A stretch of DNA of 64,000 bases from positions 1 to 64,000 of IMG/VR virus record IMGVR_UViG_3300042731_007310. One strand, 5' to 3'. This document shows positions 1-47,138 of this stretch, piece after piece. The notes under the pieces were generated by a model. It did no database searches. It was not told the DNA's origin and saw only the letters and a program-made list of their open reading frames with translations. Within the stretch, counting starts at the first letter, position 1. Every line of letters starts with the position of its first letter. A program made the translations under genes and the position numbers. Origin of the DNA: a virus.

Positions 1-191
1 TAGAAACGTGTAAGTGGCCGTCAACTACATTGGTAGCGGTTGATAGAGACGTTCTTAGGCGTGTAACCAACATTCATGTTCAAAATGGAAAAGGGAACAC
101 CATAGTTGTTCCGGTTTCAGATAGTGTAATAGAAAAAGATGGTATTTTCGATTTTGATTTTCCGCATTATGAATCAGTGACACATGTCTAA
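1..191 (+). CDS. 3' end of an unidentified gene (5' truncated by the window)
   Basis: An open frame runs in from the window edge (codons begin at base 3) and stops at TAA 189-191, giving the last 62 residues of a protein. The tail contains an acidic-aromatic patch (IFDFDFPHYE) and no motif that identifies it. Its stop overlaps the ATG of the next gene at 184 by eight bases, so the two are probably translationally coupled. Function unknown. Confidence 0.6.
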   Translation, partial: ETCKWPSTTLVAVDRDVLRRVTNIHVQNGKGNTIVVPVSDSVIEKDGIFDFDFPHYESVTHV

Positions 192-732
192 ATTAGATGA
201 CATAAGAGAACAGTTGAAACGGCCATTGATATTTACTCCTAATGAGCCGATATCACGAGATCTATTGATACAGATATCAAACGATCTAGCTATTTCTGTT
301 GGTATGGATCCGGATTACTTCATAGAACTATTTGAAGATATGAGTGGTTCAGCTATTCCGGGTTCACCAGAAGAAGCGCTTAGGTCCGTGATGAAGGTAA
401 TAGGATCGTATTTGTATGGTTGTGCTGTGAAGCCAGATGTAATTAGGTATGTTTCTTTTTGTGTACCAGGATCTATATTTGGTGGTCAATTGCAATCATC
501 CATTTGTGACTTTGCTGTATTAGAAGCGCAATGGCCAAGGGGAACTAGGGTTGTGATGGGTCCTAATCCGGAATTGAATTTTGAAGATCAGAGAGCTTAT
601 ATATTGAAGCCAGACAAAAACGTTTTTCTGATTCCATACTACGGTAGTGCACTGTGGAAACATATTGATGAAAAAAATAAGGTTATAATGTTTGAAGACG
701 ATGATGATGGTATGGATGAAATTCCTTTTTAG
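184..732 (+). CDS. Unknown 182-aa protein with an SSB-like acidic C-terminal tip
   Basis: The body (about residues 1-165) matches no family I recognise. It ends in a run of Asp/Glu followed by G-M-D-E-I-P-F. This closely resembles the conserved tip of bacterial single-stranded DNA-binding proteins (D-D-D-I-P-F), which docks SSB onto PriA, RecQ, ExoI and other replication and repair proteins. The N-terminus (M-S-K-L-D-D-I-R) is a weak match to the module that opens the neighbouring small genes. It could be a divergent phage SSB or a protein that copies the tip to recruit host repair enzymes. The tail is seen directly; the role is inference. Confidence 0.7.
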   Translation: MSKLDDIREQLKRPLIFTPNEPISRDLLIQISNDLAISVGMDPDYFIELFEDMSGSAIPGSPEEALRSVMKVIGSYLYGCAVKPDVIRYVSFCVPGSIFGGQLQSSICDFAVLEAQWPRGTRVVMGPNPELNFEDQRAYILKPDKNVFLIPYYGSALWKHIDEKNKVIMFEDDDDGMDEIPF

Positions 733-739
733 GTGAGTT

Positions 740-1183
740 ATGAATTTAGACGATCTGAGAAAGAAAGCACGTGGTGGTGACTTAGAACCTGAACCAGATA
801 AGCCGTGTGATTTTGAAGGTTGTGATAATTTCGCTACCTATAGAGACGAAGAAGGTCATTGGTGTCACACTCATAGAATAAAAATGATAAGAGAGACAGT
901 TAGTATGGATCCTACTGGTGGTAGTTTTGGTGGATCGGCTGCAACTGTGTTGTATACTGGTTCGTTTGCTGCTACTTGTGCTGTTTCGCCATCAATATTA
1001 TATACACCACCGTCTTCAGGTTCAGCGCTTCCACCATTAGCACCTATTCCACCAGTGTTGTCTTCAATTGAAGAAGACAAAGAAGAACCTAGTATAGTAA
1101 AGATATTGAGGAAAGCTAGATTATTTGGTAAAGGTTTTGTTGAGGGGTTGATCGAAGATGAATCTGAAGGAACTAAGAAATAA
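740..1183 (+). CDS. Small zinc-finger protein with shared N-terminal module
   Basis: A 147-aa protein in three parts. Residues 1-14 (MNLDDLRKKARGGD) are the module shared with the downstream neighbours. Residues 23-47 hold a C-x4-C...C-x2-H cluster (CDFEGC then WCHTH) typical of a small zinc knuckle. Residues 60-115 are rich in Gly, Ser and Pro and probably unstructured, and a basic-acidic tail follows. GGTG lies just before the ATG. Its 3' end overlaps the next gene by 26 bases. Probably a nucleic-acid or protein-binding adaptor; the function is not known. Confidence 0.75.
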   Translation: MNLDDLRKKARGGDLEPEPDKPCDFEGCDNFATYRDEEGHWCHTHRIKMIRETVSMDPTGGSFGGSAATVLYTGSFAATCAVSPSILYTPPSSGSALPPLAPIPPVLSSIEEDKEEPSIVKILRKARLFGKGFVEGLIEDESEGTKK

Positions 1184-1376
1184 GGCGCGTAAAGGAATCG
1201 AACCCGAAAGGGATTGTAATAGTCCTTTGCTACCACAGAAAACGTTTTTTGGAATTGACTTCGGTGTAGTTGACTCGATTGCTTTTGTTTCTAAAAATAG
1301 AGACGCGGCTGATATAACACTAAGAGAATTCAAAAGACTGATGGGTATAGACTGGAATATACATGAAACTAGATGA
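1158..1376 (+). CDS. Small protein with shared N-terminal module
   Basis: A 72-aa protein opening with MNLKELRNKARKGIEPERD, a full copy of the local module. The nucleotide stretch AAATAAGGCGCGTAAAGG is nearly identical to that in the gene starting at 1669, which points to recent duplication of the 5' end. The rest (residues 25-72) has no recognisable domain and lacks the cysteines of its neighbours. It overlaps the upstream gene by 26 bases and the downstream one by 14. Function unknown. Confidence 0.65.
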   Translation: MNLKELRNKARKGIEPERDCNSPLLPQKTFFGIDFGVVDSIAFVSKNRDAADITLREFKRLMGIDWNIHETR

Positions 1377-1665
1377 TATAAGGCTAGTTCTGTCTAGTAA
1401 GAATGGTGTAGATAGATTCGAAAAGAAGAAGGAGAAATCACCTGTCTTAGACGAAGAACTTTGCAATCATCCCGGATGTTTTGAAAAAGGAATCGTGCCT
1501 GATGGCGGTATTCTGTATTGTAAAGAACACCATTTCAAGTGTGATGTGTGGTCAAGCTATGGTGAACACGCGTGTAAAAATAGGGTAGCTGAATTAGGTG
1601 ATGTATGTGAATTGTGCAAGGGTAAGGGACATACAAAAAGAATTCGACGCGGTAGAAGGTGGTAG
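1363..1665 (+). CDS. Small double zinc-finger protein
   Basis: A 100-aa protein. The N-terminus (MKLDDIRLVLSSKNG) is a partial version of the shared module. Two cysteine clusters follow: C-x4-C...YC-x2-H at about residues 36-57, and C...C...C-x2-C at about residues 60-85. The C-terminus is strongly basic (KRIRRGRRW). The first cluster is the same knuckle as in the genes at 740 and 3078. A zinc-dependent nucleic-acid-binding protein is likely but not proven. It overlaps the upstream gene by 14 bases. Confidence 0.7.
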   Translation: MKLDDIRLVLSSKNGVDRFEKKKEKSPVLDEELCNHPGCFEKGIVPDGGILYCKEHHFKCDVWSSYGEHACKNRVAELGDVCELCKGKGHTKRIRRGRRW

Positions 1666-1668
1666 AAT

Positions 1669-1944
1669 ATGAACCTGTCAGATCTAAGGAATAAGGCGCG
1701 TAAAGGGATCAAGGCACCTAAACGTAAGCGTAGAAGGCGTGATACACCTATAACACCTATAGTTACTATAAAGCCTATTGATGTTATGAATACAATTATG
1801 TCTAATGCGCCTAAATCCGATGACGTTGCTAAAGCTATGGACGCATTATCTAGGGTTGGTAGATTGTCACAAGAACAGTTGGACAAATTTGTTCAGCTAA
1901 TGTTTGATCCTTCCGTTATAAAAAATAAGGAGAAAAGAAAATGA
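1669..1944 (+). CDS. Basic protein with shared N-terminal module
   Basis: A 91-aa protein. Residues 1-15 (MNLSDLRNKARKGIK) are a textbook copy of the local module, followed by a very basic stretch (APKRKRRRRD) and a helical acidic-amphipathic second half (about residues 45-90). The basic tail directly after the module closely matches the 24-residue product at 5667. It overlaps the next gene by an ATGA junction. The likely role is binding nucleic acid or a phage or host complex. No enzyme motif was seen. Confidence 0.7.
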   Translation: MNLSDLRNKARKGIKAPKRKRRRRDTPITPIVTIKPIDVMNTIMSNAPKSDDVAKAMDALSRVGRLSQEQLDKFVQLMFDPSVIKNKEKRK

Positions 1945-2168
1945 GAAGAAGAACTATATGGATCTTAGCCAAACCTGGTGAAACACGTTTTTTTTGTCAA
2001 CCGCGTGAATACTCTCAAGAGTGGTTGGATATCCAAAGAAAAGACGGTTACGAATTATTCGAAGTAACCATCACTCTACCGGAACGTTATGATAGCAAGG
2101 CTGAAAAGGCATATGTAAGAAGGGTAAAGGAGATAATAGATGGAAGCCAAGGGACTTCGACTAAGTAA
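1941..2168 (+). CDS. Hypothetical small protein
   Basis: A 75-aa protein starting at the ATGA overlap with its upstream neighbour and preceded by AGGAG. It lacks the shared N-terminal module and cysteines. It has mixed beta and alpha character and resembles no family I know. Its last 29 bases overlap the start of the sigma factor gene, so the two are probably co-translated. Function unknown. Confidence 0.65.
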   Translation: MRRRTIWILAKPGETRFFCQPREYSQEWLDIQRKDGYELFEVTITLPERYDSKAEKAYVRRVKEIIDGSQGTSTK

Positions 2169-3081
2169 GAAGGTTCAGAAAGAAAAGTTGTTGAGAATAA
2201 GGGAGATTGAAAGGGATTTATATAATCTATTCTTCAATCATTCAGTCAAGGAAGATCTACCCGATGAGAGTTGTGATCATGTAAATGATTTCTTCTCTGA
2301 AAATGCCAATATTCTATCTAAACATATTCACAGGTTGATTGAAGAATGGAGATCGTTGAAGGGTGAAATTCTTCTATCGAATATTGGCATTATAGTAAAG
2401 GCCGTTAGTAGGTGGTCTATTCCGTCTACTTCAACTTATGACGATTTGCTACAAGAAGGTATAATAGCCGGTATGAAGTCGGTAGATAGATTCAATCCTA
2501 AATTAGGTTACGCGATTACTACCTATATGAGTAAATGTGTTTTTTATTCTATGTATCGTATTTTCTATGCTCACTCAAAGATAGTAAAGGAACCGGCTTA
2601 CTTGAGAGTTGTTAGGTGTGCCGATAACAAACAGACAAGAAAAAACGGAGGTAAACAGATTGATGAAAAACATCTTTCAGAAATAAGTGGTTTCAGAAAA
2701 ACGGCGATCAAAATTGCAAGAAATGAAGTTAGAGTGATATCGATAGAAGCGTTTAATAAATCAGCCGGATCTGATAGAAATTCTGGTGTTTCACTAATTA
2801 TACAAAGAGCCCTTACATATGAAGGTGAATCACAAGAAGAAGCTGTTTCAAATTCTCAATTGAAGAAATTCGCAATGGATTCTTTGAAGGTACTCAATAG
2901 GAGAGAGAAAGTAGTAATGATCAAGAGATACGGATTATTAGATTATAAACCATTGACGCTAAGAGAGATCGGTAAAGACTTAGGAGTATCCCGGGAAAGA
3001 GTACGTCAAATAGAAAATGATGCGCTATTCAAGTTGAGAAGAAAATTAAAACAACAGGATGTATTCGAGGTTATCAGGTGA
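2140..3081 (+). CDS. Phage RNA polymerase sigma factor (sigma-70 family)
   Basis: A 313-aa protein that should direct host RNA polymerase to phage promoters. Region 2 lies at about residues 100-165 (DDLLQEGIIAGMKSVDRFNP then a Y-rich stretch corresponding to the -10-melting helix). Region 4 lies at about 245-310, with REKVVMIKRYGL followed by a clear helix-turn-helix (TLREIGKDLGVSRERVRQIE) that reads the -35 element. Region 1.1 is absent, as in alternative factors. The ATG is set by AAGGAG eight bases upstream. It sits among the small zinc-finger genes and may control the late virion module. The family assignment is strong; the target promoters are unknown. Confidence 0.93.
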   Translation: MEAKGLRLSKKVQKEKLLRIREIERDLYNLFFNHSVKEDLPDESCDHVNDFFSENANILSKHIHRLIEEWRSLKGEILLSNIGIIVKAVSRWSIPSTSTYDDLLQEGIIAGMKSVDRFNPKLGYAITTYMSKCVFYSMYRIFYAHSKIVKEPAYLRVVRCADNKQTRKNGGKQIDEKHLSEISGFRKTAIKIARNEVRVISIEAFNKSAGSDRNSGVSLIIQRALTYEGESQEEAVSNSQLKKFAMDSLKVLNRREKVVMIKRYGLLDYKPLTLREIGKDLGVSRERVRQIENDALFKLRRKLKQQDVFEVIR

Positions 3082-3311
3082 AATTGGAAGATCTAAGAAA
3101 TAAGGTCAAGAATGGCTTCAAGACTAGGCGTACATGTGGTGTCACGTTTTGTAGTAAATATTCGACTACAAATGGGTATTGCAAAGATCATATTTACGAG
3201 TGTAGAACAAGGGGGTGTAGTAATCGGGTTAGTCGTTTGAATGCAAAGTGCAGTGTGTGTTCTAGGCGAGACAATCAGATTAGACTGAAGGAAATAAAGA
3301 AGGTAAGATGA
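3078..3311 (+). CDS. Small zinc-finger protein with shared N-terminal module
   Basis: A 77-aa protein. The start is GTG at the GTGA overlap with the sigma factor stop, with GAGG upstream. The module (MKLEDLRNKVKNGFK) is followed by C-x4-C...YC-x2-H (about residues 20-39), a second C-x4-C, a C-x2-C pair (about residues 43-60) and a basic tail. The layout is the same as in the gene at 1363, so the two are paralogues. Probably nucleic-acid or protein binding. Coupling to the sigma factor hints at co-expression. Confidence 0.7.
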   Translation: MKLEDLRNKVKNGFKTRRTCGVTFCSKYSTTNGYCKDHIYECRTRGCSNRVSRLNAKCSVCSRRDNQIRLKEIKKVR

Positions 3312-3553
3312 AGCTCTCCGATCTTCGAAAAAGGGCCGTGAAGGGGATAAAACGGCCTTCTATGACTCGTAAACAGGAACAACGTGTCAAGAATGGTGGT
3401 AAATGGAAGATTGTTTCTGTTGACAGTTTGAAGGGTCCTATCAAGGGACAAGTAATTGATAGAATTGACTTCCAGATAGTAGACGATGTACTAGATGAAG
3501 GTGATCTTTCGCGTGATGAAAGAAGAGATCTTCTTACATGGTACGGTGATTGA
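3308..3553 (+). CDS. Small protein with shared N-terminal module
   Basis: An 81-aa protein beginning at an ATGA overlap. The module (MKLSDLRKRAVKGIKRP) shares the first 17 bases of its coding sequence with the copy at 5667. The rest has a basic middle and an acidic C-terminal part (about residues 50-81, DDVLDEGDLSRDERRD). There are no cysteines. Function unknown. It ends the first run of coupled module genes. Confidence 0.7.
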   Translation: MKLSDLRKRAVKGIKRPSMTRKQEQRVKNGGKWKIVSVDSLKGPIKGQVIDRIDFQIVDDVLDEGDLSRDERRDLLTWYGD

Positions 3554-3827
3554 ATTCGAGGATAACGACGGTTTTTTGTTATTCTGAATGGGTAAAAAAT
3601 AATAAAAAAAAGCTTGCAAGTTGAAGCGAAAGCGCTAGATGGTCCACGGGTCAGGGAGGATCTGTCTTTTTTCATTCTTACATGATGTGATAACCGGATA
3701 TTGGTGGTATAAACGGTTACTAAAAACGTTTTTCTTCATAAAATAATGAAAATAAACCTTGAAAGTTGAAGCGAAGTAACGTATATTTATTCTTATGGAC
3801 GCAACAACAATAAAGGGAGAAACGAAG
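3554..3827 (+). other. Intergenic region with promoter elements
   Basis: No gene is convincing here. The region contains a degenerate copy of the recurring promoter (TTGCAA at 3614 followed by GTTGAAGCGA) and a small TAACCG/CGGTTA inverted repeat (3691-3719). It also holds an AAAACGTTTTT palindrome near 3723 and the strong promoter listed next. Confidence 0.6.
3759..3787 (+). promoter_or_regulatory. Sigma-70-like promoter, copy 1 of a recurring element
   Basis: TTGAAA (3759-3764), a 17-base spacer and TATATT (3782-3787), with an A/T-rich stretch upstream that could act as an UP element. The spacer carries GTTGAAGCGAAGTAACG, identical to the promoter at 4472. It drives the gene at 3828. Confidence 0.8.
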
Positions 3828-4115
3828 ATGGCAACAATAAAAGAAATCTACCAAATCGGACTTGAAGCGGCTGCAAAGCTTGATTCTTGGGTTTTCACAG
3901 GAATAGTGGTTGACGGAACAACGGAAGCTTGCGAAAAGGCGATCGCGATTGCTAGTGAGATTCTACCTGGTATCGCGCTAAGTGAGACCTTGACGCTAGC
4001 TGAAGCCTTTCTTGAAAAGAATGAAGCGATTGTTCCGGTTCCGGGTGAAACCAAGTGTTTATTCGAATCAGTCAAGACCGAATATGCTCATTTCGTATTA
4101 GGTGGTAAGAATTAA
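3828..4115 (+). CDS. Hypothetical protein behind recurring promoter
   Basis: A 95-aa predicted helical, mildly acidic protein with no family I recognise. I chose ATG 3828 because AAGGGAG lies at a good distance upstream. An in-frame ATG at 3795 would add 11 residues (MDATTIKGETK) but sits seven bases after the -10 box, so it could only be used on a leaderless transcript. The leader and Shine-Dalgarno region match those of the genes at 4538 and 14272, so these three are a co-regulated set. Confidence 0.7.
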   Translation: MATIKEIYQIGLEAAAKLDSWVFTGIVVDGTTEACEKAIAIASEILPGIALSETLTLAEAFLEKNEAIVPVPGETKCLFESVKTEYAHFVLGGKN

Positions 4116-4152
4116 AACTCATTTGACCTACATGGTCAGAAAGGCCCGTTCA

Positions 4153-4383
4153 ATGTCTAAACCTATCGTAAACAATCCGTCTCTCAAGGGTCAACTTGCT
4201 AGCCGAAAGCGTCTTTTCGGACCTTGGAGCCGTTACGCTGTAGCAGCGGTTCACACCAGATTCGAAAATGTAGTTTGGATGGTTTGGGATTCAGAAACCA
4301 TCGATCTGGAAACGGATCTGATCGATATAATCCGTATCGCTGATACGGAAGAAAAGGCCGTAGAAGGCCTTCCGTTGTCATAG
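4153..4383 (+). CDS. Hypothetical small protein
   Basis: A 76-aa protein. ATG 4153 is preferred because GAAAGG lies eight bases upstream. The frame also reaches back to GTG 4102, which would overlap the previous gene by 14 bases. The sequence is mixed alpha/beta with a Trp-rich centre (VVWMVWDSE) and matches no known family. A strong terminator follows at 4408, so the transcription unit from promoter 3759 ends here. Confidence 0.6.
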   Translation: MSKPIVNNPSLKGQLASRKRLFGPWSRYAVAAVHTRFENVVWMVWDSETIDLETDLIDIIRIADTEEKAVEGLPLS

Positions 4384-4407
4384 CCCTAACGTTGTGTCGT
4401 TTTGAAG

Positions 4408-4436
4408 AAGGCCGTTTTAGAACGGCCTTTTTCTTT
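4408..4436 (+). terminator. Rho-independent terminator
   Basis: A perfect 9-bp stem AAGGCCGTT/AACGGCCTT with a TTAG loop, followed by a T-rich run. A near copy lies at 5081. Confidence 0.9.
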
Positions 4437-4471
4437 GTTTACGTATAGATACAAAATAATGAAAAAAAATG

Positions 4472-4500
4472 TTGCAAGTTGAAGCGAAGTAACGTATATT
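4472..4500 (+). promoter_or_regulatory. Sigma-70-like promoter, copy 2 of a recurring element
   Basis: TTGCAA (4472-4477), a 17-base spacer identical to that at 3765-3781 and TATATT (4495-4500). An A-rich stretch lies upstream. Confidence 0.82.
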
Positions 4501-4537
4501 GATAATTATGACGACAACGACAAAAGGAGAAACGACG

Positions 4538-4705
4538 ATGAAGAAAGCTACTGTCAAATTGGATCTTGGAAACAATGAAGAAATCAGTCAAGGCGTAAAC
4601 AAGAATTCTGATGGTACTTACACTGCTATGACCTTCACTAAGTCGAAAACCTTCAAGACTCGAAACGGCGCTATCCGTTGGTTATCACGTCAACTATCAA
4701 AGTAA
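4538..4705 (+). CDS. Hypothetical 55-aa protein
   Basis: A short basic protein (MKKATVKLDL...) predicted to form a strand pair and a C-terminal helix (GAIRWLSRQLSK). ATG 4538 has AAAGGAG upstream. An in-frame ATG at 4508 lies seven bases after the -10 box and would add 10 residues (MTTTTKGETT). It is probably a small regulator or inhibitor expressed early, but there is no family match. Confidence 0.65.
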   Translation: MKKATVKLDLGNNEEISQGVNKNSDGTYTAMTFTKSKTFKTRNGAIRWLSRQLSK

Positions 4706-4718
4706 AGGAGAAACGACG

Positions 4719-5057
4719 ATGAAAAAGACTCATGACGGTTTAGATGTATATCCAGTTGGTTCGAAACTACCATGGACTGCTAAAGGCTGGACACAATGTA
4801 GGCTCTTTGATGGCGCTTGCCTTACTTGGATTGATGAGAAGGACATTGACACCTACAAAGAACACCTAAATAAAATAGATGAAGCTCTCAAGCTCATCAC
4901 TACGAAAAAAGGCGGAATTGCGGCAATGAAGGGTTTAGGCCTTTCTCTAATCGGTTGTGACAAGTTGAAGGATATGAAACTACGTATCCGGAATAACATA
5001 GTTGAGAGATCTTGGCCGTTGATCGAAGTAGATGACGCTGTGAGCGCTTCCAACTGA
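4719..5057 (+). CDS. Hypothetical protein
   Basis: A 112-aa protein with the same ribosome-binding cassette as its upstream neighbour (AAAGGAGAAACGACG then ATG). The N-terminal half is Trp-rich (LPWTAKGWTQC, LTWIDE) and the C-terminal half is helical and charged. Thirteen bases separate it from the previous gene, and a terminator follows at 5081. Function unknown. Confidence 0.7.
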   Translation: MKKTHDGLDVYPVGSKLPWTAKGWTQCRLFDGACLTWIDEKDIDTYKEHLNKIDEALKLITTKKGGIAAMKGLGLSLIGCDKLKDMKLRIRNNIVERSWPLIEVDDAVSASN

Positions 5058-5080
5058 AAATAGACCTCATAGGTCAAGAG

Positions 5081-5112
5081 AAAAAAGGCCGTCTTAGAAC
5101 GGCCTTTTCTTT
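5081..5112 (+). terminator. Rho-independent terminator
   Basis: A stem AAGGCCGT(C)/(A)ACGGCCTT with a TTAG-type loop, flanked by an A-run and a T-run, so it may work in both directions. It is nearly identical to the terminator at 4408. Confidence 0.88.
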
Positions 5113-5157
5113 GCCTAAAAACCATCGATCACCGAAGAAAGGCGGTAAATAGAAAGT

Positions 5158-5670
5158 ATGAAACTTGACGATCTTCGAAAAGAAGCAATTTCAGGTATTG
5201 ATCCTTATCACAAGTGGGATAAACGGCCGTTACTAACGAAAAAAGGCATATTGGCTAGTAGTCCGGACTTCGACTATTCATTTATTCTTCAACGTTGTGA
5301 ATGTGGGAGTGTGATCGGAGTGAAATTAGGTTCTTCGATATGTCCGGTATGTGGGAAAGATCAAAATTCGATCATAAGTTCAAAAGTTGTTTTCGACATG
5401 TCGAAAATTAGGGTATTAGACGATTCAATGAGGAAAATAGGCGCTAAAATGGCTAGAATACGCGAACTGGCTAAAGCTGTTAGAACCACCTATGACTTTC
5501 ATAAGGTGGTTGAGAATGCCAGTTTAGGCCTTCCACCAAAACACTTCAATTCACGTTGTGATCGTTATTATCCGTTATTTGATCCGACTGATGCTAGAAT
5601 AGCCGATCTTCAAAAGTACGCTTATCCGCATAGGATCATTTTACCTGATGAATCAAAACGGAAATTATGA
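5158..5670 (+). CDS. Zinc-ribbon protein with shared N-terminal module
   Basis: A 170-aa protein. The module (MKLDDLRKEAISGIDP) is followed at about residues 49-72 by a zinc ribbon with two CxxC-like knuckles (RCECGSVIGV then ICPVCGKDQN) and a helical C-terminal half. The ribbon and the residues after it are paralogous to the next gene's body, so 5158-5670 and 5667-5987 are a tandem duplication. Likely a nucleic-acid-binding adaptor. No catalytic motif was seen. Confidence 0.75.
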   Translation: MKLDDLRKEAISGIDPYHKWDKRPLLTKKGILASSPDFDYSFILQRCECGSVIGVKLGSSICPVCGKDQNSIISSKVVFDMSKIRVLDDSMRKIGAKMARIRELAKAVRTTYDFHKVVENASLGLPPKHFNSRCDRYYPLFDPTDARIADLQKYAYPHRIILPDESKRKL

Positions 5671-5741
5671 AGCTCTCCGATCTCAGAAGAAAAGCCGCTT
5701 CCGGAATCAAGACACCTAAACGCAAGGTCAAGAAAACCTAG
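5667..5741 (+). CDS. 24-aa peptide: the shared module alone, ended by an amber codon
   Basis: It starts at an ATGA overlap with the zinc-ribbon gene. It encodes MKLSDLRRKAASGI plus a basic tail (KTPKRKVKKT) and stops at TAG 5739-5741. The reading frame stays open after the TAG to 5987. The product is thus either a free module peptide or the start of an interrupted larger protein. Confidence 0.55.
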   Translation: MKLSDLRRKAASGIKTPKRKVKKT

Positions 5742-5987
5742 GTTACAAAAGAAGGCCGTGTTTTCATAATTGGCAATCCGTCAAATGGTGATGATCCGGA
5801 TGTGAGAGTTGTGAAGTGTGAGTGCGGAAAGCTGATATCAATAAAGCAAGGTTGCACATTGTGTCCAAAGTGCGGAAAAGATCACAATAACGCAATGAAA
5901 TACACCAAAACACAATTGAAAGCATACAACGAAATAGCGAAACGCCTATTTCGGCTCAATTCAGTCAAAGGTAAAAAGAAGAGGTAA
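5667..5987 (+). pseudogene. Amber-interrupted zinc-ribbon paralogue (possible readthrough gene)
   Basis: If TAG 5739-5741 is read through, the frame gives a 106-residue protein with the same order as the gene at 5158: shared module, linker, zinc ribbon (KCECGKLISI then LCPKCGKDHN) and a basic helix. A GTG at 5802 could restart the ribbon half as a 61-aa protein. The region between 5742 and 5802 has no stop and reads like protein. Possible explanations are a nonsense mutation, readthrough, host amber suppression or a sequencing error. TAG is a normal stop elsewhere in this window. Confidence 0.6.
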
Positions 5988-6040: not shown

Positions 6041-6091
6041 TCAAACACTTACCTAGTGATTTATAGTCTTTCAGGTAAGTTTGTGACGGAA
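6041..6091. repeat. Inverted repeat, GACGGAA hairpin family copy 1
   Basis: CACTTACCT (6046-6054) pairs with AGGTAAGT (6073-6080), and TTTGTGACGGAA continues outward. A half copy GAGGTAAGTGTGTGAGCGGA follows at 6098-6117, and another half copy AAGCAAGTGTGTGACGGAAA lies near 6166-6185. Confidence 0.7.
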
Positions 6092-6805
6092 AATACAGAG
6101 GTAAGTGTGTGAGCGGACGTATTTCGCCCGTATGTATAGAAAGAGGATAAATCTATACGAACATAAGCAAGTGTGTGACGGAAATATCTATCTACCAGTA
6201 AAAACACACATCAGAAAACGAGGTAAACAGAAAAAGCCCTTCTACATACGAAAGAGTACTGAGAGACCTAGATAAAGAGGTTAGACTACACTCAACACTA
6301 CACACATATAGGGGATTACGGATACGCTATTTTTCGGATATTGGCACATGTACTCATGTAGTACGAAAGGCTATAGATTTATACGTGAAAACGTTTTTCG
6401 GATATTGTCACACGTAAGGATACGCACACCCAAAATCCCCCCTAAACAAACACCAAATCCCGAATAATGAGTAAGAGTAGATACAGGTAGAATGATGAGA
6501 TAGGTAGGTCTATACTCTATTTCCATATATACGAATGTATGTATATGATATCAGATAGTATTATTGTATAGGATTACAATTCTATATTGATACATTATTG
6601 CAGGATGAAAGAGAGATAGTACAACTCTCATCGTTCCGGATATTAGAGTATTGATGGTATTGTCGGCTATAGGTATAGGCGTAGTCGGCTACAGGAACAG
6701 GTATAGGAAGGCCCCCGCGCGCCCCCCTACGCCACTGCCCTACTTCGCCCACACACCGACCAACCAACCGCTTGAACTCCATAGATTTATGCTTCCGGAC
6801 ATATA

Positions 6806-6875
6806 TCCGTCACACACTTACCTGAACATGATGAATAACCTATACCTAACAATCTTAGGCAAGTGTGTGACGGAA
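6806..6875. repeat. Long inverted repeat, GACGGAA hairpin family copy 2
   Basis: TCCGTCACACACTTACCT pairs with AGGCAAGTGTGTGACGGA over 18 positions with one mismatch, around a loop of about 33 bases. A direct half repeat (TATGTGACGGAAGG) follows at 6881. This is the largest palindrome I see in the window. Confidence 0.8.
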
Positions 6876-7064
6876 GCAACTATGTGACGGAAGGTGTTCA
6901 GTATTGAATGTATGCAATAGGGGGTGGGGTACTATGAGGGCTCCCTTTCGGCGTGGTGGCGGTGTGTTGGCTACACATGGCTGACCCAACAACCGTACGC
7001 TACTCAACGGGCAAAAAAAAATAAAAAAAATATCGATACTTCAATACAGGCGATATTTCGCCTA

Positions 7065-7092
7065 TTGACAGAAACGCGCTATTGTGTATGCT
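7065..7092 (+). promoter_or_regulatory. Sigma-70-like promoter
   Basis: TTGACA (7065-7070), a 16-base spacer and TATGCT (7087-7092). A small AGGCGA/TCGCCT hairpin sits directly upstream of the -35 box and could be an operator. It leads into the gene at 7307 through a roughly 200-base leader that includes another GACGGAA hairpin. Confidence 0.6.
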
Positions 7093-7245
7093 GATACTTG
7101 TGACTGCATTTATTATCATCGCAAACCACGGTTCGGAAGGGGGTGATTCCGATGTTCTAGGCAATCTTTATATAGCAAAAAATATTGATATGGGATACGG
7201 TGCGTACTTGACGTTTGGGTCATTGCGCACTGTATCATTGAATCA

Positions 7246-7285
7246 TTCACACACTTGCTTACGCAAGCAATTATGTGACGGAAAC
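7246..7285. repeat. Inverted repeat, GACGGAA hairpin family copy 3
   Basis: TTCACACACTTGCTTACGCA then AGCAATTATGTGACGGAA. The inner arms are TTGCTT/AAGCAA and the outer arms CACA/TGTG. It lies just upstream of the ribosome-binding site of the gene at 7307, where it would form in the transcript leader. Confidence 0.7.
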
Positions 7286-7306
7286 ACGAAAAGGGGATAA
7301 CCGACA

Positions 7307-7507
7307 ATGCAAACGATATTCATAGTCATAGGCGTAACCGGAATCATGGCGCTAAACGCCACGTGCTTCTTTTTAGGACTGTCTATCGGTCGAATGTTAG
7401 AAGCGCGTAGAGCACTCCGAAAAATCAAACGTCTACAGCGCGAACTAACCGAACTTCAAGACTTTCGGAATATCGCGTGTCAAACCTACACGAACGAACC
7501 TAACTAG
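7307..7507 (+). CDS. Small single-pass membrane protein
   Basis: A 66-aa protein. Residues 1-30 form one membrane segment with small-residue packing (GLSIGRMLEA). A basic helical, possibly coiled-coil, tail follows (RRALRKIKRLQRELTELQ). The layout is like the products at 12914 and 13173. It could be a membrane anchor, a holin-like or a superinfection-exclusion protein, but nothing in the sequence decides this. The leader carries GGGGATAACCGACA before the ATG, a variant of the local ribosome-binding cassette. Confidence 0.65.
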   Translation: MQTIFIVIGVTGIMALNATCFFLGLSIGRMLEARRALRKIKRLQRELTELQDFRNIACQTYTNEPN

Positions 7508-7516
7508 GGGTAGAAT

Positions 7517-7780
7517 ATGAAAACGAAGAAAAGAGAGTTGGATACGCATACGCATATCTGTTTTGAGATAGGCGAACACGGCCACCTATTCATAAACAGA
7601 AGGGGCTTCATGTACATGCAAGAATGCCACGTTAGAGAACGAAAATGTTCTCATGATTGCCCACACTTCAGCGAAGATAATCTTATATCAAGAAATGATG
7701 ACCCGTATCTAGAGCTTGTTTGTACAGGACGAAAGATACGGGGAACATGGCGCGACGAACGGCCAAAGGGAAAACTATAA
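7517..7780 (+). CDS. Hypothetical Cys/His-rich protein
   Basis: An 87-aa protein with many His and Cys residues (THTHICFE, GEHGHLF, CHVRERKCSHDCPHF) that could bind zinc. The cysteine spacing C-x6-C-x3-C-x-H is not one I can assign. AGGGGTAGAAT precedes the ATG, and it lies nine bases after the membrane protein gene. Function unknown. Confidence 0.6.
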   Translation: MKTKKRELDTHTHICFEIGEHGHLFINRRGFMYMQECHVRERKCSHDCPHFSEDNLISRNDDPYLELVCTGRKIRGTWRDERPKGKL

Positions 7781-7787
7781 TAACCTC

Positions 7788-7850
7788 GTTCACACACTTA
7801 CCTGTGTAAGCAACTGTATGACGGAAAACATTTTTACCGCTTTGCCCAAA
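7788..7850. repeat. GACGGAA hairpin copy 4 plus conserved 3' block
   Basis: TTCACACACTTACCTGTGTA then AGCAACTGTATGACGGAA, with an inner TTAC/GTAA stem. It is followed by AAAACATTTTTACCGCTTTG and CCCAAA, a block repeated almost unchanged at 8671-8697. It fills the gap between the genes at 7517 and 7893. Confidence 0.7.
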
Positions 7851-7892
7851 CTTCACGTTATATAAGTAGAAAACAAAAAGGAGTAATCGACA

Positions 7893-8204
7893 ATGGCAAG
7901 TAATCATGAACCGAAGAACAAGACGAGAAATGACGCTTGGATGCGTCTACTCTCATCCCGGACTGGAAGCTTCAAAGGTGCTACGCTTCCGTATCTTCAA
8001 GGACTGCGCGAATACGTTCATGCGTGGCTTCAGGATATCGAAGAAGAAATCGGAATCTTTGAACAACAACAGGTTGAACAAGAAGAAGATGAAGATTGCT
8101 ACTGTGATAGCGTTTGTCTCGACTGTGATGACCGTGATAATCCGAATAAGTGTTCATTGTGTAGCATAGTCAAGAAACCACCATCAGCACTTCGGACGAA
8201 GTAA
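7893..8204 (+). CDS. Hypothetical protein with recurring GAT-x-YL and Cys modules
   Basis: A 103-aa protein built from two local modules. Residues 10-50 (DAWMRLL...GATLPYLQGLREYVHAWL) recur in the products at 10479 and 12693. The Cys-rich tail (CDSVCLDCDDR then NKCSLCS) recurs in the product at 9391. GGAGTAATCGACA precedes the ATG. Its stop overlaps the next start (TAATG). Probably a small adaptor that binds zinc. Function unknown. Confidence 0.68.
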   Translation: MASNHEPKNKTRNDAWMRLLSSRTGSFKGATLPYLQGLREYVHAWLQDIEEEIGIFEQQQVEQEEDEDCYCDSVCLDCDDRDNPNKCSLCSIVKKPPSALRTK

Positions 8205-8431
8205 TGAGCACAAGAGTAAAGCCGCACTGGATAACCGAACATGAGCGAGCCCAAATAGTCGCTACTATGAATGAAGTTGATATGTTCGTGTCCAGTTCTG
8301 TAGTCGAGATGAACGGCAAGTGGTATTTCATGAGTGTCCGGTTTGACTCCATAAAGGGACCGTACGATACTCACGAAGAATGTAAACGAGATTGCCGTGA
8401 ATACTACTTGAAAATGAAGAGTGTGTCTTGA
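8204..8431 (+). CDS. Hypothetical protein with GKWYF-GPYDT module
   Basis: A 75-aa protein consisting of one copy of a compact module: a helix starting WITEHERA, strand NGKWYFMS, then KGPYDTHEECKRD and a helix. The same unit occurs twice in the product at 11315. It starts at the TAATG junction with the upstream gene. The module may be a small protein-binding fold; I cannot name it. Confidence 0.68.
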   Translation: MSTRVKPHWITEHERAQIVATMNEVDMFVSSSVVEMNGKWYFMSVRFDSIKGPYDTHEECKRDCREYYLKMKSVS

Positions 8432-8445
8432 AGGGGATAATGACG

Positions 8446-8655
8446 ATGATAACTATCAAAAAGTATATGAAGGGCAAGATATCAAAGGCCGTATACGAGA
8501 CTCAAAAACAGGTTCGGATACGCCATGCGAAACATGACGTAGTGTTTCGTGAGTGGTATCTTTCGACCGAAAGCAACGGTGATTTGACGCTTCACGTTCC
8601 ATATCGGATAGGGATCTGTGGTAGTAAGGTGTCTGAAGTCACCGTCAAGCTGTAA
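8446..8655 (+). CDS. Hypothetical protein with HVPYRI C-terminal module
   Basis: A 69-aa protein. The second half (FREWYLSTESNGDLTLHVPY and the following residues) recurs in the products at 9995 and 10479. ATG 8446 is chosen from AAGGGG nine bases upstream; an in-frame ATG at 8440 is too close to it. Function unknown. Confidence 0.65.
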   Translation: MITIKKYMKGKISKAVYETQKQVRIRHAKHDVVFREWYLSTESNGDLTLHVPYRIGICGSKVSEVTVKL

Positions 8656-8697
8656 GCAAGTGTGTGACTGAAAACGTTTTTACCGCTTTGCCCAAAA
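8654..8697. repeat. GACGGAA half copy 5 plus conserved 3' block
   Basis: AAGCAAGTGTGTGACTG followed by AAAACGTTTTTACCGCTTTG and CCCAAA, matching 7823-7850 with one visible base change. It lies in the intergenic gap before the gene at 8726. Confidence 0.7.
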
Positions 8698-9390: not shown

Positions 9391-9990
9391 ATGAATAAAG
9401 ACTTAGTAGAAGAATTTGAACGTTGGAAAGAAAGTATGTGTGTTGAACCTGGTTGTCCAAACTTAGCGGCTAGTGGTTATATATATTGTGAAGAACACCT
9501 TCACGGTTTACCACAGAAACCGCCCCTTTGGGTGTTGGAAAAGCTTGGTTTTGCTTCAACTGACAAGGAAGATGTAAAAAAATCAATATCCAATATGAAC
9601 AAGGTCACAACAAAGTTTATAACAAAAGCAACGGAAGCCGAAATGTTGGAAATCCGCGAAGAACTTCTGTCCACTATCGTTGGTGTTGAAACAGAGTTAG
9701 GACGGGTTCGCGGAGAGAATGAGAGAAAAGAAGATGAACGGATGAGCGATGAAGATATCGATTTAGCAATCGAGAATATGGAAGTCGCGTTATCTAATAT
9801 CGATCTAAACAAATTGGATAATATTGAATTGCCAGAAATTGAAGAAGGAGAAGGTTGTCGTACGGATAGATGTTCTTCTATTTGTAATACTTGTGACTAT
9901 CGCCATAGTCCGGTCAAATGTTCTGTATGTACCGTTCCCTTACTTCTTCCGTACAGAATCGACAATCGTGAAAGGACTAAAGGTAAATAA
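9391..9990 (+). CDS. Hypothetical zinc-finger protein with mosaic C-terminus
   Basis: A 199-aa protein. Near the N-terminus is C-x4-C...YC-x2-H (CVEPGC then YCEEH), the knuckle also seen at 740, 1363 and 3078. The centre (about 60-155) is a long charged helix, probably coiled coil. The C-terminus has the Cys module of the product at 7893 (CSSICNTCDYR then KCSVC). After that come residues LPYRIDNRE, matching the HVPYRIDNRE of the very next gene, as if a fragment of that module had been fused on. It uses the GGGAGTAATCGACA ribosome-binding cassette. Confidence 0.7.
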   Translation: MNKDLVEEFERWKESMCVEPGCPNLAASGYIYCEEHLHGLPQKPPLWVLEKLGFASTDKEDVKKSISNMNKVTTKFITKATEAEMLEIREELLSTIVGVETELGRVRGENERKEDERMSDEDIDLAIENMEVALSNIDLNKLDNIELPEIEEGEGCRTDRCSSICNTCDYRHSPVKCSVCTVPLLLPYRIDNRERTKGK

Positions 9991-33281: not shown

Positions 33282-33821
33282 ATGAACGATATTGCGCGCC
33301 ACATTGAAGGCATAGCTGAATGTGTCAGAAAAACAACCGTTCCAGCGCTTAGAGAAGAAGCGCGAAAAGAAATGGTTGTTGATACAGAAAAAGATACGTC
33401 TACAGAAAATTCACCAGATGAACAGAAGTCCGTAAAAAAGCAGATAGAAGTTTCGATCGCTAAAGCAGACGAAGAACAACAGACGGTTACTGGTATTGTA
33501 CTTCAGCCTGAAGTGGTGGATGGTCAAGGCGATATCATGTCTGAAGAAGTTATTAGAGATAGCGCTTATGCTTTTCTGATGAACTTCAATAAGGCAACCA
33601 AATTAGGCATTCAGCACAATAAATTCCCTGTTGGAAAACTTGCGTTGGTTGAAAGTTGGCTTTCTCCTATGGAAATGGCAATAGGTACTAAGACGGTCAA
33701 ACAGGGTTCTTGGATTATGACCGTAAAAATACTGGACAAAAAACTTTGGGAGAAAGTAAAGAAGGGTGAAATAACCGGCTTTAGTATTGGTGGTAAGGCC
33801 AAGGTTGTTGCATCAACATAG
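33282..33821 (+). CDS. XkdF-like prohead serine protease
   Basis: A 179-aa protein of the XkdF putative protease family. The core starts at about residue 58 (QTVTGIVLQPEVVDGQGDIM). A conserved His lies in GIQHNKFP (about 111-116) and a Ser in TGFSIGG (about 165-171), matching the expected catalytic pair. It should cleave scaffold or capsid precursors in the prohead. The N-terminal 50 residues are acidic. No ribosome site precedes the ATG. Confidence 0.85.
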   Translation: MNDIARHIEGIAECVRKTTVPALREEARKEMVVDTEKDTSTENSPDEQKSVKKQIEVSIAKADEEQQTVTGIVLQPEVVDGQGDIMSEEVIRDSAYAFLMNFNKATKLGIQHNKFPVGKLALVESWLSPMEMAIGTKTVKQGSWIMTVKILDKKLWEKVKKGEITGFSIGGKAKVVAST

Positions 33822-42227: not shown

Positions 42228-45200
42228 ATGGCTATTCCATCTTATGAAGGTATTGCATCTAATACGGCGTTTGCTTCATCAATCACCGTAGATATATCTG
42301 GTATAGATGGTGGGAGTCCACCTACTGTTGGTGATTTACTAATTGCTAATGTTTCTGTAGTAAATATATCAGCTCCAACAAATGAACTTATAACCGCACC
42401 TGATGGATGGCACAAACTTGGAAAGGTACTTTTAGGTCACCGTGATGCTTTATTTTGGAAGATAAGGGAAAGCGGAGATAGCAACAGTGTTCAATTTGGT
42501 CATGCTGGAATAGGTGTACTAAACACAATAGCATATATCCATTGTATACGTGGCGCTGATAAAGCAAGGCCAATAGTAAGGCAATCAATAAATTATGAAG
42601 ATTCTGGAACCTATAATTGGGATGCAGAAACAACACCTGTAGCAGATTGTTTAGCGATAGCTTCAGTAAATTTAGCTGAAGGAAATAATACTGGTGCTAG
42701 TCCGGCTAGCGGTTGGACAGAAAGACTAGACATTGGAATTGGAATTTTGATTGATGAGCTTACTTCTTACGTTCAAACAAGGGGATTTGCAACGCAAGGA
42801 AGTAGTACTGGAAATCCATCAACTGATATTCCGGGTATAGTTTCGTATCAATATATTGCACGTATGATATTGGTTCAACCGCCACAAACGGCTACACCAA
42901 AAGATATTCGTGTTGCAACTGGAACATTTGCTAGTCCTACTTCAACAGGTAATCAAGATTTTACAAATCTAGGATTTGACTGCAAAGCGTTGATAATTTA
43001 CGGAATAAGGAACTCCGATCAATCAGCGGTGACGGATATAGAATACACACACGGAATAGGTGCCGACGACGGTGTGACCAGCGCGGCACAAAGATGCTTT
43101 GGAGTTTGGCATGATTCCGGATCTGGTGCGGCTGGATATAGTAGAAATGGAGAAATAATCGCGCTCTACATCGCCGGCAACTCTACGTTGGGCAGTCCGG
43201 ATTTATTGGCTACGTACAGCAGAATCACAGGCGGATTCAGATTGAATTGGACTTCCGTAATGGGAAGCGGTTATGCGTTTAGTTACATGGCTTTCGGAGG
43301 AGCCGATTTCCAAGCAGCTTGCGGAGCCGTTCAAGCCAGCGCAGGTTCAGTTAGTGGCTTGAATTTCAGACCTGAAGCTGTTCATATAATAGGTCAATGC
43401 CTTGATTCTGATTCAGATCAATTGAGGACCGTTTACGGTTTAGGAGCTTGCGGATGGTTAGATTGCCAAACCGGCGCCCAATTCTATTCTTTCATCGACA
43501 CACAAGAAACCGGAAACGGGGAATTCATATTCAGGGATTCTGGATTGTACGGTCAATCGGTCGGAGGAACTCCGGGTTGGGAGATAGAATTCGCAAAAAC
43601 CAATTCAGACGGTTGGAACTGGGCAGGGACCGATTCAGATTACTTCTTCTATTTGGCCATGTATTTCGGCGGAACCACGTATTTCCCGTATCAAGTTGAG
43701 TATATTGAATCAGATGATTCCGGAACTGGTGGGGCCGATCAATATCTACCTTCATTTGCGCTAGATCAGACATATGCAACCAAAAAATTAATTCATGCTT
43801 TAGGAAATAGGGACGGAACAGATGTGGGTTTAGAAGCTGGTGGATGTTCTGAAGGTCACGTAAAATTTTCGTATGAAGCGGTTGATCAAGATGGTATGGC
43901 AATAGCCAAAATCGGAAGTACATCAGAGAGAAGAAGGGCTACATTTCAAGCGATACTGATGCACTCTTCTGGTGATTTAGATTCGATTGGAAAATTAGGT
44001 AGATTTTATTATCCAGATTATATCGACTGGCAAGTAAATAATACCGTAGATCATTTGATAGGTTTATTTACTTTAGGATTTATAGGTCAAGTCTATACGA
44101 GAATAATCAATGATACAATATCCGTATCAGATAATCTTGACGTTGAAATGTTTTATGGAAGGACTACTGTTTCAGACAATGTTTCAGTAACAGATTCCAT
44201 TCAACGTGTTCATGATGCTCACCGGATTATAAACGACACTATTTCAGTCACAGATCAAATTCAACGCGAACATGACGCTGTTAGAATCATCAACGATACA
44301 GTAAACGTATCAGATCAAGTATATACTAATCTAGAATATGAAAGATCAATAAACGACACTGTTTCTATTTCAGATCAGATTCAAAGCGAACATGACGCTG
44401 TTAGAATCATCAACGATACTGTTTCTGTTTCTGATTCTTTATCCACAGAACTTTCATATGGAAGAACGCTTTCTGACACTGTTTCGGTTACAGATTCTAT
44501 TCAACGTGAACATGATGCTCACCGAATAGTAGGCGACGCTATTTCAATAACAGATCAAGCTTCTACCGAATTAGAGTATGGAAGGGCGGTAGGCGACACT
44601 GTTTCGGTAACCGATCAAATTCAAAGGGAACATGACGCTGTAAGAACGATTGATGACACCGTTTCAGTAACCGATCAGATTCAACGTGTTCATGATGCTC
44701 ACCGGATTATAAGCGATTCGATATCTGTTACAGATCAAATTCAGCGAGCCCATGACGCAAGTAGGATAATAGACGATTCGATATCTGTTACAGATCAAAT
44801 TCAGCGAGCCCATGAATCACATAGAATTATAAATGATAATATAAGTATTTCTGATTCGATAAATGTGAATACAGCTTTTTGTTTTTGTTTTAGCGATCCT
44901 ATAAACGTCATCGATCAGATTTTACGTGCTCATGACGCGGTTAGAACAATAAACGATCAAATTGCCGTTATTGATTCTGTCGTTAGAAACATGTATTTTG
45001 AAAGATCTGTAAATGATACGGTAAACATAACCGATCAACTTGTAGTAGAATTCTTTATAGAGAGAACTGTTAGTGACACCATAAGCGTATCTGATCAACT
45101 ATCAAGGGATCACGATTCTTCAAGAACGTTTGATGACAACGTATCAGTAGTTGATCAAATAGCGATAGAAGTATTTATAAAAAATGTCGATTCCATATCT

Positions 45201-47138
45201 GTCATTGATCAAGTGGTGGTCTCACTTGAATACGAAAGAAGTTTTTCAGATTCCGTTTCTGTAACTGATTCCGTAAAAGCAACATTGGAATTCGAAAGAA
45301 GTTTTTCAGATTCCGTTTCGTTATCAGATTCTTTATCTATTGAACTTGAATACGGAAGAATCATCAGTGATTCCATTTCTGTTGTTGATTCAATCCAATA
45401 CGTTCATGATGCTCATAGAATAATAAGTGATACCGTTTCAACTACTGACCAAATCGTTCCGGAAGTCTTTAGGGACTATGGTGATATGGTTGGTATTATT
45501 GATGAGTTGAAAGTATCGCTGGTATATGGTCGTATCATTTCTGATTACGTAGTAACTTATGACACGTTTAGTAGGGGAAAAGAGATCGGGTATGCAATAT
45601 CCGATAGCGTAAATATCATTGATCAAATTTCTACTGAAATGAATTTTGGTAGAGTGATAAATGATTCAACAAATGTTTCAGATCAGTTGATTGCAGAGTT
45701 CATAGAAGGACAAATAAAAAGAGAGTTTTATGAAACTATAGGTGTTACAGATTCTTTGTCCATTGAAATGGAGTACGGAAGGACTGTAAGCGATTCCGTG
45801 AATGTTTTAGATCAAATACTTACTGGTTATGCGCAAGGAATAACGATAAACGATTCTGTTTCAGTTTCAGATCAACTTATCAGATCTCAAGATGTAAATA
45901 TAGAAATCAACGATTCGATAAACGTATCCGATCAAGCTTCAGCCGGAATCTTCGATTATGCATTTTTTGATTCAGTTAGTTTGTCTGATTCTTTGTCCAT
46001 TGAAATGGAGTACGGAAGGTTAATAAGTGACACCGTTTCAACTGTTGACCAAATCGTATCACAAATAACTGGTGAAATAAATATAACGATAAATGATACT
46101 ATTTCGGTAGCAGATTCAATTCAAAGGGAACATGACGCTGTAAGAAACATCAGCGACAGTGTTTCTGTTTCTGACTTATTAGGTGCGACTAGCGAGAGAG
46201 AAATATCTGATTCAATAAATGTGTCAGATCAACTGATAGCAGAAACTTCTTATAATAGATCTATTAGCGACACAATAAATGTAACAGATTCCATTCAACG
46301 TGAACATGACGCGGTTAGATCAATCACTGATTCGATACAGGTTGATGATACGATATCTGTTTCTACTGGTGGAATTATTCTTCTTTCTGATTCCGTAAAC
46401 GTAGTAGAACAACTTTCGATCGAAATGGAATATGGAAGAACGATAAGTGAAACCATTTCTGTTACAGATCAGACTTCAGCTTTAGCAGAAAGAATTTTTG
46501 ATATTGCAATTGGTGATTCGATAAACGTTTCTGAAACGTTTATCAGTGAAGTCGAATATCACAGAATTATTTCTGATTCAGTAAGTGTCACAGATCAACT
46601 TTCTGTTTTCACTCCTAGTTTTGACGTTGAAATAGATGACTCAATATCAGTAGAAGATTTGATAATCGTTTCACTCGAAAAAGCGAAAACGATTTTCGAT
46701 TCTATTCAGGTTTCAGATTCAATAGAATCAGAGTTGACTTTAGGTGCTTATGTATCTGATAACGTATTTGTTACAGATCAGATTTTAGCAGACTTGATTT
46801 TCACAACACCGGATGAACTTGAAGTGGTTGATCTGTTGTTGGTAGAAGTGAACTATTCAAGGTCAACAAATGATAGTGTAGAAATTGAAGATTCAATAAT
46901 AGAAGGTGCTCAAATTTTACTTATTCATGGTATTGAAGACGGGATAAATTATGGTCCATTGAAAATTTATACCGTTTCTCCTACTGGACCTTTGAGTATT
47001 TCTGGTGGTAGAGACTGTTATCCAATTCCAACAGGATTTGTCATAATCAAGGGTGATTATGTAGAATGTAATGATAGGTTGGATTCAGGAATGATTTTCG
47101 AACAAACAATAGATGATTCTGTTCAAGTAACGGGGTGA
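42228..47138 (+). CDS. Fibre-like protein with about 45 copies of a 20-residue repeat
   Basis: A 1636-aa protein, the largest here. Residues 1-620 form several beta domains, including two that look like appendage or carbohydrate-binding folds. From about residue 625 to 1557 there is a chain of repeats of about 20 residues with the core D-T/S-I/V-S-V-T/S-D-Q/S-I/L followed by a variable ten (often QREHDAVRIIN). The last 80 residues are a separate end domain. A tail fibre or whisker role is likely. The DNA at about 43060-43690 is visibly richer in G+C than the rest. Confidence 0.75.
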   Translation: MAIPSYEGIASNTAFASSITVDISGIDGGSPPTVGDLLIANVSVVNISAPTNELITAPDGWHKLGKVLLGHRDALFWKIRESGDSNSVQFGHAGIGVLNTIAYIHCIRGADKARPIVRQSINYEDSGTYNWDAETTPVADCLAIASVNLAEGNNTGASPASGWTERLDIGIGILIDELTSYVQTRGFATQGSSTGNPSTDIPGIVSYQYIARMILVQPPQTATPKDIRVATGTFASPTSTGNQDFTNLGFDCKALIIYGIRNSDQSAVTDIEYTHGIGADDGVTSAAQRCFGVWHDSGSGAAGYSRNGEIIALYIAGNSTLGSPDLLATYSRITGGFRLNWTSVMGSGYAFSYMAFGGADFQAACGAVQASAGSVSGLNFRPEAVHIIGQCLDSDSDQLRTVYGLGACGWLDCQTGAQFYSFIDTQETGNGEFIFRDSGLYGQSVGGTPGWEIEFAKTNSDGWNWAGTDSDYFFYLAMYFGGTTYFPYQVEYIESDDSGTGGADQYLPSFALDQTYATKKLIHALGNRDGTDVGLEAGGCSEGHVKFSYEAVDQDGMAIAKIGSTSERRRATFQAILMHSSGDLDSIGKLGRFYYPDYIDWQVNNTVDHLIGLFTLGFIGQVYTRIINDTISVSDNLDVEMFYGRTTVSDNVSVTDSIQRVHDAHRIINDTISVTDQIQREHDAVRIINDTVNVSDQVYTNLEYERSINDTVSISDQIQSEHDAVRIINDTVSVSDSLSTELSYGRTLSDTVSVTDSIQREHDAHRIVGDAISITDQASTELEYGRAVGDTVSVTDQIQREHDAVRTIDDTVSVTDQIQRVHDAHRIISDSISVTDQIQRAHDASRIIDDSISVTDQIQRAHESHRIINDNISISDSINVNTAFCFCFSDPINVIDQILRAHDAVRTINDQIAVIDSVVRNMYFERSVNDTVNITDQLVVEFFIERTVSDTISVSDQLSRDHDSSRTFDDNVSVVDQIAIEVFIKNVDSISVIDQVVVSLEYERSFSDSVSVTDSVKATLEFERSFSDSVSLSDSLSIELEYGRIISDSISVVDSIQYVHDAHRIISDTVSTTDQIVPEVFRDYGDMVGIIDELKVSLVYGRIISDYVVTYDTFSRGKEIGYAISDSVNIIDQISTEMNFGRVINDSTNVSDQLIAEFIEGQIKREFYETIGVTDSLSIEMEYGRTVSDSVNVLDQILTGYAQGITINDSVSVSDQLIRSQDVNIEINDSINVSDQASAGIFDYAFFDSVSLSDSLSIEMEYGRLISDTVSTVDQIVSQITGEINITINDTISVADSIQREHDAVRNISDSVSVSDLLGATSEREISDSINVSDQLIAETSYNRSISDTINVTDSIQREHDAVRSITDSIQVDDTISVSTGGIILLSDSVNVVEQLSIEMEYGRTISETISVTDQTSALAERIFDIAIGDSINVSETFISEVEYHRIISDSVSVTDQLSVFTPSFDVEIDDSISVEDLIIVSLEKAKTIFDSIQVSDSIESELTLGAYVSDNVFVTDQILADLIFTTPDELEVVDLLLVEVNYSRSTNDSVEIEDSIIEGAQILLIHGIEDGINYGPLKIYTVSPTGPLSISGGRDCYPIPTGFVIIKGDYVECNDRLDSGMIFEQTIDDSVQVTG
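44100..46905 (+). repeat. Array of degenerate 60-base coding repeats
   Basis: Tandem units of about 60 bases within the fibre gene. Some neighbouring units are close to identical at DNA level (around 44690-44815), others have diverged, which suggests continuing expansion and loss of units. Confidence 0.8.

Follow-up and report, generated by a model that had tools for sequence, protein, structure and literature searches.

One short N-terminal head on many small proteins of a viral contig: a candidate docking helix

Why should a series of otherwise unrelated small proteins, encoded close together in a virus, all begin with the same short peptide? The question is raised by the start of IMG/VR record IMGVR_UViG_3300042731_007310, a viral contig of 84,478 bases whose first 64 kb were analysed here (the window). 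Judging from the sequence, the source is a large tailed phage of an uncultured group, and the contig carries a structural block with terminase-, portal- and capsid-like genes. Between positions 740 and 5987, seven genes start with [MV][KN]-L-x-[DE]-L-R, and their products diverge after about 13 residues. We call this common start the head. It is conserved in distant relatives of the phage, it stands at the N-terminus of interchangeable bodies, and one of its carriers is linked to dnaE, the gene of DNA polymerase III alpha. The head may well be an N-terminal docking helix through which diverse proteins, most of them zinc-binding, are brought to a common partner, which is probably the replication complex; we favour this reading tentatively. 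Searches of the open-access literature found no description of the head.

One head before different bodies

An earlier note on this DNA had claimed seven clear head copies, and all of them are present on the plus strand, with starts at 740, 1158, 1669, 3078, 3308, 5158 and 5667. Its claim that different bodies follow one head is also borne out, as the bodies in the window are unalike except for those of 5158 and 5802. The first copy, MNLDDLRKKARGG (740..778), opens gene 740-1183, whose body joins a zinc-knuckle-like CxxxGCxxxA...CxxH motif to a Pro/Ser-rich part. Searches of Pfam, PHROGs and NCBIfam gave no significant match for this gene, nor for the other head proteins of the window. The second copy, MNLKELRNKARKG (1158..1196), begins gene 1158-1376; the third, MNLSDLRNKARKG (1669..1707), is followed in gene 1669-1944 by a basic linker and a helical tail. 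The fourth, V/MKLEDLRNKVKNG (3078..3116), uses a GTG start and precedes the cysteine-rich body of gene 3078-3311. Several head genes start over the preceding stop codon, as does gene 3308-3553, which overlaps 3078-3311 and carries the fifth copy, MKLSDLRKRAVKG (3308..3346). The sixth, MKLDDLRKEAISG (5158..5196), heads gene 5158-5670, which encodes a zinc ribbon (CECG...CPVCGKDQN). Cysteine-rich bodies are thus found in genes 740, 1363 and 3078, and basic or charged tails in 1669 and 3308.

Weaker versions of the head occur in two further genes. Gene 1363-1665 begins with MKLDDIRLVLSS / MKLDDIRLVLSSK (1363..1401, plus strand), and its product has several Cys/His pairs. The start of gene 184-732, MSKLDDIREQLK / MSKLDDIREQLKR (184..222, plus strand), is divergent, and its place in the family is uncertain. 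One more copy, MAKLEEIRKWARGKK, lies beyond the window at contig position 82330.

Three other observations were made around these genes. A headless protein encoded at 9391-9990 has a CxxPGCxNxAxxGxxYCxxH knuckle of the same kind as those in 740 and 3078. The 21-base intergenic element TTGAAGCGAAGTAACGTATAT occurs identically at 3766-3786 and 4479-4499 ahead of small genes and is possibly a repeated promoter. Finally, GTGTGACGGAA is found eight times (0-1 mismatch) at 6081-8672, against one expected, mostly where long open reading frames (ORFs) are few.

The seventh copy, MKLSDLRRKAASGIKTPKRKVKKT (5667..5741, plus strand), ends in an in-frame TAG at 5739-5741 and had been read as a peptide made of the head only. 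However, the same frame continues from 5742 to 5987 and encodes a zinc ribbon (CECG...CPKCGKDHN), given by CECGKLISIKQGCTLCPKCGKDHN, which is paralogous to the body of 5158 (E 1.8e-7). The TAG therefore splits one head-plus-zinc-ribbon gene, and a separate module-only peptide does not exist here. The TAG may represent a nonsense mutation, an assembly error or readthrough. Recoding of the stop codon is unlikely, because TAG serves as an ordinary stop elsewhere in the contig (for example at 730-732) and ARAGORN found no tRNA in the window.

Conservation of the head

Among the chosen ORFs of the whole contig, [KN]Lx[DE]LR is confined to N-termini. The strict motif was counted at the starts of 48,732 possible peptides from this phage and its relatives, with 6 matches in the contig and 15 in the relatives. 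When the motif positions were permuted, the relatives gave a mean of 0.29 matches and a maximum of 3, the latter excluding a near-identical permutation in which x and D/E are swapped. A DNA pattern of the head had 23 matches in 29 records, compared with 1 for the reversed control. A looser motif gave 30 matches against 25 in controls, and since these are nearly equal, only the strict motif is taken as statistical evidence. The profile search proposed in the earlier note was of partial use: hits of a 22-residue alignment led to relatives, but their E-values of 0.02-0.09 were too weak alone, and the start-anchored motif counts and the DNA pattern with its reversed control took its place. No match to the consensus head was found by tblastn in 50,697 phage records. 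One pattern match, G013:55813, was rejected as a copy, as its frame soon stops.

Relatives were collected through the capsid protein, which is 98-51% identical in 27 viral contigs; a profile added more. Eight further phages have the head (G002, G004, G006, G012, G019, G023, G027 and G030), on contigs of up to about 116 kb and with major capsid identities of 55-83%. The head is thus not limited to recent duplicates in one genome. Tandem head genes are found in four of these phages, with 4 in G019, 5 in G004, 6 or 7 in G023 and 4 or 5 in G027, and the G023 copies share one head variant, MKLxELRxRYRKGRPRPK. The consensus is MKLx[DE]LRxx[LYAF]xx[G/P], with L3, [DE]5 and R7 invariant and hydrophobic residues at 3, 6 and 10. 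The body of gene 1158-1376, which contains FFGIDFGVVDSIAF, is similar to head proteins of G002, G004, G019 and G027. A GxDxAxGxDxx-like stretch, for example IVGIDPAFGPDAS and HIGVDPASGPSEK, is common to the bodies of 1158-1376, G002:64562, G004:65878, G019:45842 and G027:83915, and is possibly a second small module.

Is the head kept as a peptide or as a piece of DNA? In orthologs (G004/G019/G002/G006), identity is 79% over residues 2-7, 43% over residues 8-14 and 33% in the bodies. At least four synonymous codons are used at each of L3, D/E5, L6 and R7; invariant residues are thus encoded by interchangeable codons, which shows that the peptide is what is under selection. The head is also kept between phages with GC contents of 0.39 and 0.67. 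These results contradict the idea that the head has no protein function and that the 5' ends are shared because of recent duplication or recombination, or because they act as a signal in translation or in the mRNA, which we regard as scarcely credible. The DNA-level matches that would favour this idea, and that the earlier note had pointed out, are real: 17 consecutive bases are common to 3308 and 5667 (ATGAAGCTCTCCGATCT), and 1158 and 1669 agree at 32 of 39 nucleotides. Still, recent exchange of 5' ends is not needed, since orthologs retain their own heads while the bodies diverge and any two copies within this genome show 7-19 differences over 39 nucleotides.

Beyond the relatives, 2.9 million viral contigs were scanned for the overlapping-start pattern, and 26 contigs matched. 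With this narrow pattern, G019 and G023 alone showed several copies of the module, so that the multi-copy system looks restricted to the family. Single matches elsewhere, including N-termini of HK97-type capsid proteins, are taken as chance. Two other viral contigs each encode one 28-residue peptide, MKLSDLRKKKEAEDEKEAAKAKGGKKKK and a near copy (L233:5057 and L254:9419). A genome scan with the capsid profile found four contigs from metagenome-assembled genomes. Head-pattern matches in those genomes equal the controls, and no host is inferred from them.

The gene before dnaE and the proposed docking helix

The copy beyond the window belongs to a gene at 82330-82659 of the contig, which encodes MAKLEEIRKWARGKKVKGLPE followed by an ExoX-like_C domain (PF20600) and overlaps the start of dnaE; dnaE itself runs off the contig end. 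The same kind of gene lies directly before dnaE in G004, G011, G012, G015, G019, G020, G023, G027, G030 and G067, although it is degenerate in G015. Its product usually begins with MPTLEELRxWxRGxxIxGLP, followed by a variable linker and a conserved C-terminal domain. PF20600 matched in four of eight members (best E 1.5e-7), and NCBIfam exodeoxyribonuclease X aligned with the C-terminal part only, at an E-value of 0.0014, far below the cut-off. Here the head and a variable linker precede the domain, with no exonuclease domain in front. The domain is shared by the dnaE-adjacent head proteins, whereas the window proteins have the head and gave no PF20600 match in the Pfam search. The ExoX-type protein had no tblastn match in 50,697 phage records, its alignment had none in a PDB profile search, and a viral-contig scan returned its own contig only. 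A MoxR-type AAA ATPase gene followed by one for a CobT-type VWA protein lies in the replication block (76922-79830 of the contig; L008:2422-5330) and is kept in most relatives.

Do the two head types belong together? In G023 and G027 the ExoX protein bears the MKL-type head, as do other proteins there, and in G011 and again in G067 the head variant of the ExoX protein recurs on a second protein. In G009/G010 and G038/G039, dnaE is present without the ExoX gene, and no MKL-type heads were detected. From this sharing and joint absence, the two types are treated as one system, with moderate confidence. Other bodies behind the head include a DNA-ligase-type BRCT domain in G012 (E 5.6e-9), a weak DnaJ-type zinc motif (E 5.6e-4, below the Pfam cut-off), and further cysteine-rich or unrelated types. 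With ExoX-like_C, BRCT and DnaJ-type zinc bodies among the carriers, the head is not simply the start of one known fold.

Head genes stand apart from the structural genes. Across 11 phages, 42 head genes were placed relative to homologs of the structural genes, and not one was closer to them than 10 kb. In G000, G002, G004, G006, G012, G019 and G027, a distance of about 13-27 kb separates the multi-copy cluster from the terminase end of the structural block, which it precedes; in place of a cluster, G002 and G006 have a single gene. Between the structural genes lies one for a 1636-residue protein rich in ISDSISVTDQI-type repeats (42228-47138).

In the docking reading, residues 2 to about 12 would fold into a single short helix that has L3, L6 and the hydrophobic residue 10 on one face. 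The helix would carry the invariant acidic-5/Arg-7 pair and, in most copies, end at Gly or Pro 13; a flexible linker, usually basic, would come next. In each phage, several accessory proteins of unrelated kinds, most of them small and rich in cysteine, would bear this plug and bind the same socket on one partner. This partner would most likely lie within the replication or DNA-processing complex of the phage, because the gene of the most widely kept head protein, that with ExoX-like_C, directly precedes dnaE, and because the small number of bodies that can be recognised are of nucleic-acid types. A single-sequence AlphaFold2 model of the 3308 protein has a helix at residues 3-12, with low confidence, and the models of the 3308 and 5158 proteins both place a helix at 3-11/12. 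For the PTL-type head, the helical hydrophobic moment is higher than in all shuffled sequences. In a more specific form, which we find doubtful, a conserved socket of the replication complex takes the common helix, and small zinc proteins, in a changing set peculiar to each phage, are attached to the replisome in this way; between phages, the head varies with the socket. The socket would possibly be on DNA polymerase III alpha or on the partner of the ExoX-like_C protein.

Several points weigh against a docking helix for the replication complex. Confidence in the two AlphaFold2 models is low, with a mean predicted local distance difference test score (pLDDT) of 52 and 38, and the MKL-type head does not clearly exceed shuffled sequences in helical hydrophobic moment. 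The MKL-type and PTLxELRxW heads share only about five positions, so that G023 and G027 are the main grounds for relating them. Since tens of kb separate the multi-copy cluster from dnaE, the link to replication comes from a single gene. G009 and G038 keep dnaE with no detected head, which means that the polymerase itself does not require the head. The docking partner remains a candidate and its binding putative.

Other roles have to be weighed. The head could be a T-even-like capsid-targeting tag that sends a varying set of small proteins with early functions into the prohead, to be injected with the DNA. The body repertoire indeed varies between phages, and the gene at 33282-33821, judged by eye from its sequence, is a likely prohead protease gene. 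However, a virion tag is disfavoured because the structural block is at least 10 kb away from every one of the 42 head genes, and the most conserved carrier, coupled to dnaE, would be an odd cargo. Furthermore, residues 14-20 of the MKL-type heads have no common motif, and thus no conserved site resembling a prohead-protease cleavage site; GLPE, with a variable E, is confined to the ExoX-type head. The capsid-targeting role is therefore unlikely. Of the tag proposed in the earlier note, what stands is a constant, widely conserved head on unrelated bodies, while capsid targeting is disfavoured and the module-only peptide has proved to be part of an interrupted gene. The core of the idea, a head that would dock or sort variable bodies, withstands both conditions under which the note would have given it up: the head is neither the first helix of a single known fold nor confined to recent duplicates.

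Docking to another common partner, such as RNA polymerase, either that of the host or a phage-modified form, in order to take over transcription, is similarly unlikely. The tandem cluster encloses a sigma-70-like gene (2140-3081; Sigma70_r4 E 8e-16), and resemblance to the zinc ribbons and knuckles common in transcription factors is frequent among the bodies. Yet among the fully read relatives this sigma gene was matched only in G015 and is not kept beside the head cluster, and family searches matched no body to a known transcription factor. Heads that bind each other and give mixed oligomers of the bodies are improbable: leucines 3 and 6 and the hydrophobic residue 10 of a short helix could make a small bundle, and the G023 copies have one head variant in common, but only about ten residues are available, the heptad is absent beyond position 10-14, and the invariant acidic/Arg pair would fit a specific interface better than a coiled coil. 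A degradation tag that keeps accessory proteins short-lived through ClpX-type proteases is very improbable. Such a tag could be short, N-terminal and common to unrelated proteins, as the head is, and known N-terminal ClpX signals include basic and hydrophobic residues; the [DE]5-R7 pair and Gly/Pro 13 are not known as features of these signals.

Comparison with known systems

Unrelated phage accessory proteins are usually studied singly. If a shared docking head is real, many unannotated small proteins would act at one place, and the head would predict which of them belong together. It would also provide a transferable peptide to find that place, and a handle on small proteins without a Pfam, PHROGs or NCBIfam match.

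A resemblance to HK97-type capsid proteins is probably superficial. An N-terminus of this type, MKLHELREKRTAAV..., was met in unrelated viral contigs and conforms to the seven-residue pattern of the head. However, it occurs as a single copy that runs, by eye, into an apparent capsid protein, and the capsid protein of the present phage starts with MTISNEDIVSKAA; we regard the similarity as chance. In the Chimalliviridae, selected phage proteins are sorted to the replication site in a phage nucleus (PMC11087766). The present contigs, at about 80-116 kb, are smaller than those phages. Phage-nucleus import is not known to use a short N-terminal tag.

The closest systems in function are the microcompartment encapsulation peptides and the capsid-targeting sequence (CTS) of phage T4, and we class the head with neither. 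An encapsulation peptide is a short peptide on unrelated proteins that binds one partner (PMC11157265, PMC7221423). Here, in contrast, the genes are those of phages, no microcompartment shell gene was seen, and the motif is charged, with its invariant D/E and R, so that the likeness is one of analogy only. The T4 CTS is a short constant peptide on diverse small phage proteins and can be transferred to foreign proteins (PMC3012670). Compared by features, the head shares with it the constant N-terminal peptide on unrelated bodies, and differs in the missing cleavage-like site, the position of its genes outside the structural block and the top carrier before dnaE. The head, if it docks as proposed, would be another phage system of constant tag and variable body beside the T4 CTS, with a destination that is apparently not the virion.

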